Shown: positions 23,771-46,089 of the stretch, one piece after another
Layout: every line of letters begins with the position of its first letter
How positions within the stretch are numbered: the first letter of the stretch is position 1
DNA from: Mitsuaria sp. PDC51
GTDB lineage: Bacteria; Pseudomonadota; Gammaproteobacteria; Burkholderiales; Burkholderiaceae_C
NCBI RefSeq assembly: GCF_900113225.1
Contig: NZ_FOZE01000003.1
Coordinates: 186,001-250,000, forward strand
Reading direction: 5' to 3'
DNA: 64,000 nucleotides
The notes under the pieces: generated by a model
What the model was told of the DNA's origin: nothing
Seen by the model: the letters and a program-made list of their open reading frames with translations, nothing else
Databases searched by the model: none
Translations under genes and position numbers: made by a program

Positions 23771-25684
23771 TTAGCGGCTGTGCGCCGTCAGCTTGGCCAG
23801 CGGCGAGGCCAGGCTGACGCCCGGCGCCGCGCGGCGCGCGCTGACGCGGCCGTCCTCGTCGGTCTCGTCCAGGTCCGGATGCGCGGCGCCAAGCACCGCG
23901 CCGGCCGGTCCCGCCGGATCGCGCCGCATCGCCACGCCCACCGCCAGCATGTCGATCACCAGCAGGTGCAGGATGCGGCTGATCATCGGCAGGTGCGTCG
24001 CGACGTCCTCGACGTGGTCGACGATCAGCGCCGCGTCGGCCTTCTTCGCCAGCGGCGACTGGCTGGCGGTGATCGCCACCACATGGGCGCCGCGCTCGCG
24101 CGCCGCGTCGGCCACGGCGATCAGCTCCGGCAGCTTGCCGCTGCTGCTGATCAGCACCGCCACGTCGCCCGGCTTGAGCGTCTGCGCCGCCAGCAGCTGC
24201 AGCCGCGGCTCCACGTAGGCGTTGCAGGCCACGCCCAGGCGCAGGAACTTGAACTGCGCATCCTGCGCGACCACGCCGTAATGGCCGATCGCGAAGAACT
24301 CGATGCGCGAGGCCTTCAGCAGCAGCTCGATGCTGCGGTCGATCATGTCGCGGTTGAGCTGGCTGCGCACCTGCAGGATCGCCGACGCGGTGTTGCCCAG
24401 CACCTTCTCGCCGAGCTCGACCATCGAGTCGTCCTGCGTCACCTGCGTGTGGCTGACCGGCACCGTGCCCGTCAGGCCCGACGCCAGCCGCAGCTTGAAG
24501 TCGGACAGCCCCTCGCAGCCCAGCGAGCGGCAGAAGCGGATCACCGTCGGCTGGCTGACGTTGGCGGCCTTGGCGATCTCGGCGATCGGATCGTTCAGCA
24601 CCTTGCGCGAATGCGCCAGCACATGGTCCGCGACGCGCTGCTCGGCCGGCGACAGGCCGTCGCGCGCGCGCCGGATCTGGCCGACGATCGCCGACGCGCC
24701 GCCGCTGGTCTGCAGGCTGCGCAGCTGCGCCTCCAGGATCGCCGACGCGCCCTTGAAGGTGGCGTGCTCCGCGGTGATCACGAAGGTGGGAATCGCGGCG
24801 ACGTAGTCGGAGAAGCGGCCCTTGTCCTCGAAGCGGGCGCGGAAGCGCGAGCGGTCGAAATACTCGCCCAGCCGCGGCACGATGCCGCCGCCGATGTAGA
24901 TGCCGCCCAAGGCGCCCAGCGTCACCGCCAGGTTGGCCGCGGCCGTGCCCAGCAGCGTGCAGAAGAGCTCCAGCGTCTCCTCGCAGACCGGGTCGGTGGC
25001 CTCCAGCGCGCGGGCGGTGATCTCCGGCGCGCTCAGCGGCTCCGACGGGCGCTGGAGGTAGTCCGCCATCGCGCGGTGCATCAGCTCCAGGCCCGGGCCG
25101 GACAGCAGCCGCTCGAAGGAGACGTGCTCGTACTCGTTCCAGGCGAAGCGCAGCAGCGCGATCTCGCGTTCGTCGCGCGGCGCGAAGTTGGTGTGGCCGC
25201 CTTCGGAGCCCAGCGAGATCCAGCCCTCGCCCGCCGGGATCAGGCCCGACACGCCCAGGCCCGAGCCCGAGCCCAGCAGCCCGATCACGCTGTGGGCGCG
25301 CGGCTCGCCGCCGCCGATCTGGCGGATCTCGCCGCCCCGCAGCCGCGGCAGCGCCATCGCCAGCGCGGTGAAGTCGTTGACGACCACCAGCGTGTCCAGG
25401 CCGAGGCGCTGGCGCGCTTCCTCGATCGAGAACTGCCAGTGGTAGTTGGTCATCCGGACCTGGTCGCCCTCGACCGGGTTGGCGATCGCGATCGCCGCGT
25501 GCGCCACCCGCAGCTGGCGCGGCAGGCGGTCCATGAAGGCGCGCACGGCGGCGTGGAAGTCGGCGTGCTCGGCGCAGCGCAGCAGCGCGATGTGCTCGAA
25601 CTCTCCCGGGGAGGTCTCCAGGGCGAAGCGGGCGAAGGTGCCGCCGATGTCGGCGATCAGCCGGGGACTGTCGAATTCACGCAT
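23771..25684 (-). CDS. Bifunctional glucokinase / RpiR-family transcriptional regulator
   Basis: A 637-residue fusion. Residues 1-330 are a complete glucokinase: ADIGGTFARFAL, the sugar-binding VNDFTALA, LGSGSGLGVSG and GGIYIGGGIVPRLGEYF. Residues from about 345 carry an RpiR helix-turn-helix (LNDPIAEIAKAANVSQPTVIRFCRSLGCEGLSDFK). A SIS sugar-phosphate-binding domain follows (FFAIGHYGVVAQDAQFKF, VLISSSGKLPELIAVADAARERGAHVVAITAS). Such fusions occur in Burkholderiales. Glucose phosphorylation and sensing of a hexose phosphate would be in one chain. A palindrome at 25837-25851 upstream is a candidate autoregulatory site. Confidence 0.92.
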   Translation of the reverse strand: MREFDSPRLIADIGGTFARFALETSPGEFEHIALLRCAEHADFHAAVRAFMDRLPRQLRVAHAAIAIANPVEGDQVRMTNYHWQFSIEEARQRLGLDTLVVVNDFTALAMALPRLRGGEIRQIGGGEPRAHSVIGLLGSGSGLGVSGLIPAGEGWISLGSEGGHTNFAPRDEREIALLRFAWNEYEHVSFERLLSGPGLELMHRAMADYLQRPSEPLSAPEITARALEATDPVCEETLELFCTLLGTAAANLAVTLGALGGIYIGGGIVPRLGEYFDRSRFRARFEDKGRFSDYVAAIPTFVITAEHATFKGASAILEAQLRSLQTSGGASAIVGQIRRARDGLSPAEQRVADHVLAHSRKVLNDPIAEIAKAANVSQPTVIRFCRSLGCEGLSDFKLRLASGLTGTVPVSHTQVTQDDSMVELGEKVLGNTASAILQVRSQLNRDMIDRSIELLLKASRIEFFAIGHYGVVAQDAQFKFLRLGVACNAYVEPRLQLLAAQTLKPGDVAVLISSSGKLPELIAVADAARERGAHVVAITASQSPLAKKADAALIVDHVEDVATHLPMISRILHLLVIDMLAVGVAMRRDPAGPAGAVLGAAHPDLDETDEDGRVSARRAAPGVSLASPLAKLTAHSR

Positions 25685-25836
25685 GAAGGAGAGGTGCTGG
25701 CCGCCTCGGGCCTGGCATGGATCCGGGCGAATCCAGGCGGCGCGGGGGCGTCGGGGAAGGGGCGATTATGGCCTCCACGCCCGGGAGCGCCGGAAGGGTT
25801 CGCCCCTAGCCGCGCCTTGGTCTTGGCGCGTGGTGC

Positions 25837-25851
25837 TGTAGTGAGACTACA
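25837..25851. promoter_or_regulatory. Perfect HexR/RpiR-like operator
   Basis: TGTAGTGAGACTACA is a perfect 6-3-6 inverted repeat between the Glk-RpiR gene and glk. It fits the general form TGTARY-N3-RYTACA reported for HexR, a member of the RpiR family, so the Glk-RpiR protein is the likely binder. Confidence 0.68.
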
Positions 25852-25992
25852 GTGATTTTCAGGGCCGTCGGTGGCATGGATGGTGAGAGAAAAGTGATTG
25901 GTGACAATCGCTTGCCAACGAAATCGGAGTGATTGCATCATGGCCACCGTCGCGAAAAGTGCGACCGGGTGACAGTGCTCTTGTGCGATTGC

Positions 25993-26007
25993 TGTAGTTT
26001 TGCTACC
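25993..26007. promoter_or_regulatory. Degenerate HexR/RpiR-like operator before glk
   Basis: TGTAGTTTTGCTACC matches the perfect site at 25837 in its left half and in four of six right-half positions. It lies about 83 bases before the glk start and between weak -35/-10 elements, where a bound protein would block RNA polymerase. Confidence 0.48.
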
Positions 26008-26089
26008 TTGCGCGGATTCCGCCTCCGAGGCGGCCTCCGGCGCACCTTTGGGGTGCGCCTCAACAAGCCGAACAAGCAGGACAAGCACA

Positions 26090-44758: not shown

Positions 44759-45855
44759 GCCGCGGCCCCGAGCCGCTTGAACGCCAGGCCCTGCGCGTCG
44801 AAGAGGTAGCAGAGGTCGGGCGGCAGATGCAGCTGCAGCGTGTCGCCGGAGCGCACGCGCTTGCGGCCGTCGAATTCGCAGGTCAGCGCCTCCTCGACGC
44901 CGGGATAGGCGCAGTACGCATGCGTGACGCCGCCCAGCGACTCGACGAAGGTCACCGTGCTCGAGATCAGGTTGGCATCGCCGCCGACCTCGAAGTGCTC
45001 GGGCCGCAGGCCCAGCGTGACCTTGTCGCCGGCCTTGGCGCGCGAGGCGTCCACGTGGGCGCGGATGGTCGCGCCGTCGCTCAGCCGCAGCACCGCGTGA
45101 TCGGCCGCGGCGCTGACGAGCTCGGCCTCGATGAAGTTCATCCTCGGGCTGCCGATGAAGCCGGCGACGAAGAGGTTGTCCGGATGCTCGTACAGCTCCA
45201 GCGGCGTGCCGACCTGCTCGATCTTCCCGGCGCTCAGCACCACGATGCGGTCGGCCAGCGTCATCGCCTCGACCTGGTCGTGGGTGACGTAGACCATCGT
45301 CGTCTTCAGGTCCTCGTGCAGCTTGGCGAATTCATAACGCATGCGCACGCGCAGCGCGGCGTCGAGGTTGGACAGCGGCTCGTCGAAGAGGAAGACCTCG
45401 GGCTTGCGCACGATCGCGCGGCCGATGGCCACGCGCTGGCGCTGCCCGCCCGACAGGTCCTTGGGCTTGCGCTCGAGCAGGTGCTCGATGTGCAGGATGC
45501 GCGCGGCGTAGCGCACCGCGCGGTCGATCTCGTCCTTGGGCACCTTGGCCAGCTTCAACCCGAACGCCATGTTGTCGTACAGGTTCATGTGGGGGTAGAG
45601 CGCGTAGCTCTGGAACACCATCGCGATGCCGCGCTCGGCCGGCGGCACGTCGTTGACCAGGCGCCCGCCGATGCGCATCTCGCCGCCGGTGATGTCTTCC
45701 AGCCCCGCGATCGTGCGCAGCAGCGTCGACTTGCCGCAGCCCGACGGGCCGACGAAGACCATGAACTCGCCGTCCCGGATCTCCAGGTCGATGCCATGCA
45801 GGATCTTGGTCTCGCCATAGGCCTTGACCACGCTGTGCAGCTTCACGTCCGCCAC
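44755..45855 (-). CDS. malK: Maltodextrin ABC transporter ATPase MalK/MsmX-like
   Basis: A 366-residue ATPase starting at GTG with GGAGGTATCCAA upstream. It has Walker [10 protein letters not shown], signature [16 protein letters not shown], Walker [12 protein letters not shown], the switch His in [12 protein letters not shown] and a C-terminal TOBE-like regulatory domain. It is the first gene of malKEFG. A promoter with TTGTGA and TATATT 17 bases apart lies at 45971-45999 on the minus strand. Confidence 0.91.
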
Positions 45856-45963
45856 TTGGATACCTCCGCGCGCGCCCGGGGAGGGCGCCGCCTGTCTCGT
45901 TCGTTGGTGTCGATCGATCGTCCGTCGCCGCGACCGCGCAGCGGCGAAGGAGCGAACGATGTT

Positions 45964-45978
45964 TGTAGAGAATATACA
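45964..45978. promoter_or_regulatory. Degenerate HexR/RpiR-like operator over the malK promoter
   Basis: TGTAGAGAATATACA has the 6-3-6 form with halves TGTAGA and TGTATA (one mismatch). It covers the malK -10 box, where a bound regulator would repress. Confidence 0.45.
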
Positions 45979-45999
45979 TGGCGGATTGACGATTCACAA
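45971..45999 (-). promoter_or_regulatory. Sigma-70 promoter of malKEFG
   Basis: On the minus strand TTGTGA (45994-45999) and TATATT (45971-45976) are 17 bases apart and have four and five of six consensus bases. The start codon is about 110 bases downstream. Confidence 0.62.
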
Positions 46000-46074
46000 C
46001 GCGGCTACACCCGTGCAATCGCCGTCGAATCGCGTTAAATCAATGGCTTAGGTCGAATATCGGGATAACCCGAT

Positions 46075-46089
46075 GTAGTGAAACTACAG
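46075..46089. promoter_or_regulatory. Perfect HexR/RpiR-like operator before glgX
   Basis: TGTAGTGAAACTACA is a perfect 6-3-6 inverted repeat, 67 bases before the glgX start. Its arms are identical to those of the site at 25837-25851 near the Glk-RpiR gene. Confidence 0.68.

Follow-up and report, generated by a model that had tools for sequence, protein, structure and literature searches.

Which protein reads the palindromes of the form TGTAGT-N3-ACTACA that stand around the maltodextrin genes of Mitsuaria sp. PDC51? The stretch analysed here, referred to as the window, comprises 64,000 nucleotides of contig NZ_FOZE01000003.1 (positions 186,001 to 250,000). It holds a gene encoding a 637-residue fusion of a glucokinase with an RpiR helix-turn-helix and a SIS domain. 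An earlier reading made from the letters alone (the sequence-only reading) had proposed that one regulon spans the fusion gene, glk, a TonB receptor gene, malK and glgX, and that the fusion probably binds its sites. Both proposals were supported at the level of genome comparison: perfect sites track the fusion, and an unlinked site upstream of tonB-exbBD is lost where the fusion is absent. The fusion probably acts as a transcription factor, most likely as a repressor, and would bind DNA at TGTAGT-N3-ACTACA. Its regulon would comprise its own gene, glk, the TonB receptor gene, malKEFG, the unlinked tonB-exbBD genes and the operon across from malK, namely glgX-malQ in the window strain and glgP-glgB-glgX-malQ in genome G004. 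RpiR regulators and the glucokinase-RpiR fusion (NF010701) were already known to databases. The regulon, the word, the layout of site pairs and the changed pocket of this fusion clade were not found in the titles and abstract beginnings that literature searches listed; RegPrecise or Leyn et al. 2011 may list a part.

Sites in the window and in Roseateles genomes

The fusion gene and the sites in the window are as follows.

23771..25684, minus strand: Glk-RpiR fusion, with glucokinase at residues 9-318, HTH_6 at 335-403 and SIS at 455-582 (Pfam)
25837..25851, unstranded: S1, perfect TGTAGT-N3-ACTACA upstream of the fusion, 0 mismatches
25993..26007, unstranded: S2, TGTAGTTTTGCTACC, upstream of glk, 2 mismatches
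27114..27128, unstranded: S3, TGTAGTACAGCTACA, 13 bp past the glk stop, 1 mismatch
27286..27300, unstranded: S4, TCTAGTTTTAGTACA, the site closest to the receptor gene, 2 mismatches
45964..45978, minus strand: S6, TGTATATTCTCTACA, overlapping the malK -10 box, putative core operator, 3 mismatches
46074..46088, unstranded: S5, perfect palindrome between malK and glgX, 0 mismatches

Five of these sites had been named in the sequence-only reading, and all five exist, with 0, 2, 1, 3 and 0 mismatches in order of position. Four had been placed correctly; S5 had been put at 46075-46089, one position off. The conserved receptor site S4 had been missed, as had the tonB-exbBD site outside the window. 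S3 is taken as a putative auxiliary site of the receptor promoter.

Searching the window with up to three mismatches gave 19 matches against 2.6 expected, a number reached by 0 of 100 shuffles, and many of the three-mismatch matches lay inside open reading frames (ORFs). The genome-wide scan that had been suggested as a check was run over the 5.85-Mb genome. It returned exactly two perfect matches, both in the window, and two one-mismatch matches, the site at 27114 and one inside minD (C6:971205). Up to two mismatches, 72 places were found, which is background (reversed-pattern control, 286). The degenerate sites therefore rest on conservation across genomes and not on the scan of a single genome. 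The minD 15-mer (L081:6206-6220, 1 mismatch) was present in 11 of 16 Roseateles genomes, including the fusion-less G009. An amylase gene in the window (33011-35182) was considered as a target and is not claimed; its three-mismatch site was found in none of the three relatives examined.

The window strain was placed in Roseateles from the names of close proteins and loci, and the genus sample consisted of these 16 Roseateles genomes. The fusion was found in 14 of them (83-100% identical; in G003 it runs off the contig end) and is absent from G009 and G013. All fusion genomes carried S1 with at most one mismatch, nine of them perfectly. S2 was likewise present in 14/14, identical in 11 and in the form TGTAGTTTTGTTACC, with one further change, in three. 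S3 had one mismatch in 13 genomes and two in one, and S4 was identical throughout (14/14). S5 was perfect in every fusion genome, the copy of G008 being assigned only by its position 4.5 kb before glgX, and S6 was identical in the 13 malK regions examined, those of all fusion genomes but G008.

All 24 perfect sites of the 14 fusion genomes lay at targets (S1 9, S5 14, tonB 1). Allowing one mismatch raised the number to 70 sites, of which 53 were at targets, 10 were the minD 15-mer and seven lay elsewhere. The 53 were distributed over S1 (14), S5 (14), S3 (13), tonB (9) and a second receptor locus (3); assignments of relatives' sites to the second receptor and to minD were based on ORFs of the own genome only. 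This second sugar locus (L078:2351-13616, C4 of the own genome) contains genes for a LacI protein, a tryptophan-halogenase-like protein, a TonB receptor, transporter-like proteins, a GH1 enzyme and another glucokinase. Its receptor gene is preceded by a two-mismatch site, and three relatives carried a one-mismatch word in what seems to be the same locus.

Between S1 and the fusion start (about 25740-25820, minus strand) we also observed an inverted repeat (CTAGGGCGAACCCTT type) that is conserved, along with a box, CCATAATC. The box was present in 14/14 aligned genomes and the repeat in most. They are perhaps the site of a second regulator or the promoter.

The fusion and HexR as candidate binders

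For the wider family, 150 genomes were sampled, 32 with the fusion (E up to 1e-100) and 118 without. Perfect sites occurred in 15/32 genomes with the fusion and in 0/118 without it. They were concentrated where the fusion was at least 64% identical (14 of 23 genomes, against 1 of 9 below that value). Fusions of about 70-82% identity had a site with 0-2 mismatches within 1500 bp upstream in 16/16 cases. Nineteen perfect sites were found in other genera; of the 14 fetched, ten lay between malK and glgP, two between the fusion and glk, one at tonB-exbB and one elsewhere. Named relatives of the fusion are mostly annotated just as glucokinase. The named loci analysed were the best 80 of 555 relatives, belonging, by record title, to Roseateles, Pelomonas, Rubrivivax, Ideonella, Inhella, Undibacterium, Leptothrix, Aquabacterium, Rhodoferax and others. 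These 80 loci contained 84 sites with 0-1 mismatches, five of them perfect, where the reversed control gave 11 and none. At the 78 of them with at least 400 bp upstream, a site preceded the fusion at 0-2 mismatches in 61 and at 0-1 mismatch in 27.

An additional site, 140 kb from the fusion and outside the window, is located some 320 bp upstream of a TonB-like gene that is followed by exbB and exbD. The TonB-like protein was named from its position and look and had no Pfam match; ExbB was present in 16/16 Roseateles genomes (88-100% identical). With 0-2 mismatches the site was found in all 13 measurable fusion genomes (the contig of G008 ends too early) and in neither of the two fusion-less ones. 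In G013 only a five-mismatch remnant stood within otherwise conserved flanks, and G009 had a three-mismatch word at this position. Genome scans of G009 and G013 revealed no perfect site anywhere. Both genomes kept a zwf-linked HexR, 92 and 95% identical to that of the own genome. Decay of the tonB site while HexR was kept is the strongest hint that the binder is the fusion and not HexR.

That HexR owns the sites, which would make them an ordinary regulon responding to 2-keto-3-deoxy-6-phosphogluconate (KDPG), had to be weighed since the second RpiR protein beside zwf has all nine KDPG contacts of RccR, a Pseudomonas regulator that binds exactly this word according to an excerpt of PMC5489143. 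The second RpiR protein was found in 14/16 Roseateles genomes, G009 and G013 included; it is 44-46% identical to the regulator half of the fusion and stands beside zwf in the own genome, G009 and G013. The search returned no more than a short partial match in G007 (96% complete) and no match in G014 (94%), and the sites were kept in both. Genes expected of HexR carried another word: edd had TGTAATATGGTTACC in the six genomes examined, both fusion-less ones among them, and zwf was preceded by GGTAACTCCGTTACA in the own genome and by TGTAACGAAGTTACC in G009 and G013. These words are of the TGTAAT/TGTAAC type, 4-5 mismatches away from the word of the fusion (edd in six genomes, zwf in three), and no fusion-type site at 0-3 mismatches was present in the 1500 bp before edd in any of the six. 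They are closer to TGTAAT-N3-ATTACA, reportedly the consensus of HexR, than to the word of the fusion. The sequence-only reading had likened the palindrome to that of HexR; the RccR word is the closer parallel, and HexR-type words stand at edd and zwf. An excerpt of PMC5489143 gives the HexR word as TTGT-N7-8-ACAA. HexR was rejected as binder on the site loss in G009 and G013 and on the distinct edd and zwf words, and with perfect sites tracking the fusion across the family we regard its ownership of the sites as highly improbable. It is scarcely credible that chance palindromes combined with general promoter conservation produced the pattern. The count at up to two mismatches is indeed at background genome-wide, but the sites persist while neighbouring intergenic DNA drifts, the tonB site of G013 was lost inside conserved flanks, and the controls contradict chance.

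The edd gene of G014 keeps the HexR-type word though no zwf-linked HexR was found there; gaps in the assembly are possible, also in G007. A residue of the recognition helix was considered as a predictor of TGTAGT versus TGTAAT and dropped, the zwf-linked HexR having the same kind of residue as RccR.

Several observations weigh against the fusion as binder and repressor. The Fisher value for fusion versus perfect site (3.5e-12) overstates independence because the genomes are related, and the reversed-pattern control was itself enriched with the fusion (14/32 versus 21/118). No perfect site was found in 17/32 fusion genomes, and 17 of the 78 loci among the best 80 lacked a 0-2-mismatch site upstream. 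At 56-67% identity (L134-L140) a site stood within 1500 bp in three of the six having upstream DNA (L134-L138, L140). At 53-57% (L141-L146, which may be of the NF010701 type) one of six had upstream sites, two in number and both with two mismatches. G134 (L267), with a fusion 55% identical, has its perfect palindrome away from the known targets. Both fusion-less Roseateles genomes also lack GlgX, so the one site that can distinguish a lost regulator from lost targets is that of tonB, with n=2; the promoter of tonB was assessed solely by eye. At S2 and S4 the promoter boxes were inconsistent, and none are claimed. Judged by eye, S5 would be placed around -40 of a putative divergent promoter, where activation is possible. 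The off-target palindrome of G134 has in its vicinity a stretch that weakly (26%) resembles an amylase.

Paired sites and the predicted malK promoter

The fusion gene is divergent from the stand-alone glk and the TonB-dependent receptor gene, and malKEFG, glgX and malQ follow about 15 kb further on.

26090..27100, plus strand: glk, stand-alone glucokinase (PF02685; catalytic residues aligned to E. coli Glk; start approximate)
27430..30225, plus strand: TonB-dependent receptor, TIGR01782 type (640 bits, cut-off 310; start approximate)
40985..45855, minus strand: malK-malE-malF-malG, maltose/maltodextrin ABC transporter (MalE NF007011, 480 bits against 291)
45971..45999, minus strand: predicted malK promoter, TTGTGA (45994-45999), 17 bp, TATATT (45971-45976)
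46157..48490, plus strand: glgX, debranching enzyme (TIGR02100, 829 bits against 640.9)
48480..50010, plus strand: malQ, 4-alpha-glucanotransferase (PF02446; start approximate)

In the window strain and in G003, glgX stands directly across from malK. In G004, S5 is followed by glgP, glgB, glgX and malQ. In the other Roseateles genomes glgX is preceded by a gap of some 4.5-5.1 kb, compatible with the order of G004. The gene across from malK was glgP in ten loci of other genera as well as in G004. On the other side of the fusion, positions 20775-23749 encode a PhnU2-type 2-aminoethylphosphonate transporter permease (TIGR03262) and a TIGR03364 FAD-dependent oxidoreductase.

The predicted malK boxes were conserved (TATATT in 13/13, TTGTGA in 12/13 genomes), and S6 contained the -10 box TATATT in 13/13. 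The weak match of S6 to the palindrome follows from the bases that it shares with the promoter. S5 and S6 were exactly 110 bp apart in 13/13 genomes, though most of the intervening DNA varies. With the degenerate site of this pair sitting on the -10 box, a two-operator repressor is likely at malK. At the malK loci of other genera, a second site with 1-3 mismatches was found near S5 in 10/10. It stood 87-90 bp from S5 at one mismatch or 110-111 bp at three, and three loci had both. As a control, 17 of 2000 random 130-bp windows held such a second site; the actual stretches searched measured 143-245 bp. Four of the ten loci scored a good -35/-10 pair. The other pairs were less rigid: S1 and S2 were separated by 156 bp in nine genomes, 157 in one and 162 in four, and S3 and S4 by 172 bp in eight, 152 in four, 184 in one and 195 in one. 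Only the 110-bp spacing at malK is fixed.

Sites of the mal cluster would thus act in pairs, at malK a degenerate site on the core promoter together with a good site 87-111 bp away. A tetrameric fusion would hold core and auxiliary operators together, by cooperative or looped binding. RccR, the relative used for comparison, is called tetrameric in an excerpt of PMC10810197. Repression is what we infer from the core sites, which occupy the usual places of a repressor, on the malK -10 box (13/13) or at the expected -35 box in other genera. There is nevertheless some chance, a minor one in our view, that the fusion activates certain targets, for example glgX or glgP through S5, or that its sign changes with ligand. 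On the glgX side a GATACT-like box, its bases conserved by eye, would predict a start some 40 bp past S5, and KDPG is described for RccR as weakening binding at 15-bp sites and strengthening it at a 28-bp site (PMC5489143, excerpt).

The putative sugar-phosphate pocket and the proposed circuit

The fusion keeps the domain order of NF010701, the bifunctional regulator/glucokinase (glucokinase, HTH_6, SIS), and misses the curated equivalog cut-off of this profile (795 bits against 920, covering residues 5-589). It was also below the HexR cut-off of NF008451 with 229 bits against 296, and so was the zwf-linked RpiR protein (257 bits). In the PDB, the regulator half matched 8JU9 (E 5e-60) and 8K3B (E 6e-60) best. 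Residues N99, D100, E157, H160 and E187 of E. coli Glk are catalytic and substrate residues. All five were identical in the alignment with the fusion, and kinase activity is predicted from this intact set.

We compared the nine KDPG contacts of RccR (S139, H148, R152, H164, S183, S185, S188, K270 and R277), which are known from the RccR-KDPG complex 8K3B (PMC10810197, excerpt). The fusion has Y, F, R, R, S, S, L, H and D at these places in the alignment. Three contacts were thus kept (R152, S183, S185), against 9/9 in the zwf-linked HexR of the own genome and 5/9 in E. coli HexR. The residues aligned to K270 and R277 fall in a C-terminal tail unrelated to RccR; in many fusions of the clade a terminal tail of PGVS-A-PLARLTSHSR type (23771-23880) replaces this stretch. 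Y469 and R494, standing in place of RccR S139 and H164, were invariant across an alignment of 14 sequences; some more distant fusions differ. The fusions L141-L146 keep S139 and H148, where the clade of the window fusion has Y and F.

KDPG, one of the effectors that the sequence-only reading suggested testing, did not survive this comparison as first choice and is an unlikely ligand, six of nine contacts being changed. It could still act through altered contacts as in HexR and RccR. KDPG can be made, edd and eda being present in 16/16 genomes, the equivalents of R152, S183 and S185 are kept, and E. coli HexR itself matches RccR at only 5/9, so that some change would be tolerated if E. coli HexR senses KDPG. 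However, RccR mutants of R152, K270 and R277 abolished KDPG binding (PMC10810197, excerpt); E. coli HexR keeps all three and the fusion R152 alone, its tail being unrelated. Our guess for the effector of the fusion is glucose 6-phosphate, which the fused kinase would make.

RccR is among the nearest known systems. It shares with the fusion the word (PMC5489143, excerpt), a site at its own gene and the HTH_6 and SIS domains, but it is a stand-alone HTH-SIS protein, whereas the fusion has an N-terminal glucokinase. Its targets also differ, being genes of pyruvate dehydrogenase, the glyoxylate pathway and gluconeogenesis, and it senses KDPG. HexR, the proteobacterial regulator of zwf and edd, belongs to the same RpiR family, and glk is among its targets in some lineages (PMC5343134, excerpt); its word here (TGTAAT/TGTAAC at edd and zwf) and its other targets set it apart. 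LacI-type MalR and MalI likewise control maltose and maltodextrin genes locally (PMC4052901, excerpt) and are of a different protein family.

As the circuit may work, starch sugars would enter and glucose would be phosphorylated, partly by the kinase of the fusion itself. A sugar phosphate other than KDPG would then occupy the SIS domain, and the fusion would release its operators. Very tentatively, the fusion might be a self-reporting enzyme-repressor whose SIS domain reads glucose 6-phosphate from the fused kinase. Flux through the kinase, and not a pool elsewhere, would then determine how strongly the genes for uptake, for storage glucans and for the energy supply of TonB are expressed, and the SIS domain may in turn restrain the kinase. 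Animals have a glucokinase and a SIS-domain regulatory protein, of which the bacterial fusion would be a counterpart in layout.

In summary, a kinase-regulator fusion can now be assigned a candidate regulon and operator word, together with a layout of two operators that is open to testing, and it is told apart from the HexR of the same cell. It would be an RpiR protein that has the RccR word and has lost most KDPG contacts, so that a ligand other than KDPG is expected. In Burkholderiales, one circuit would thereby join maltodextrin uptake, glycogen enzymes and the TonB motor.

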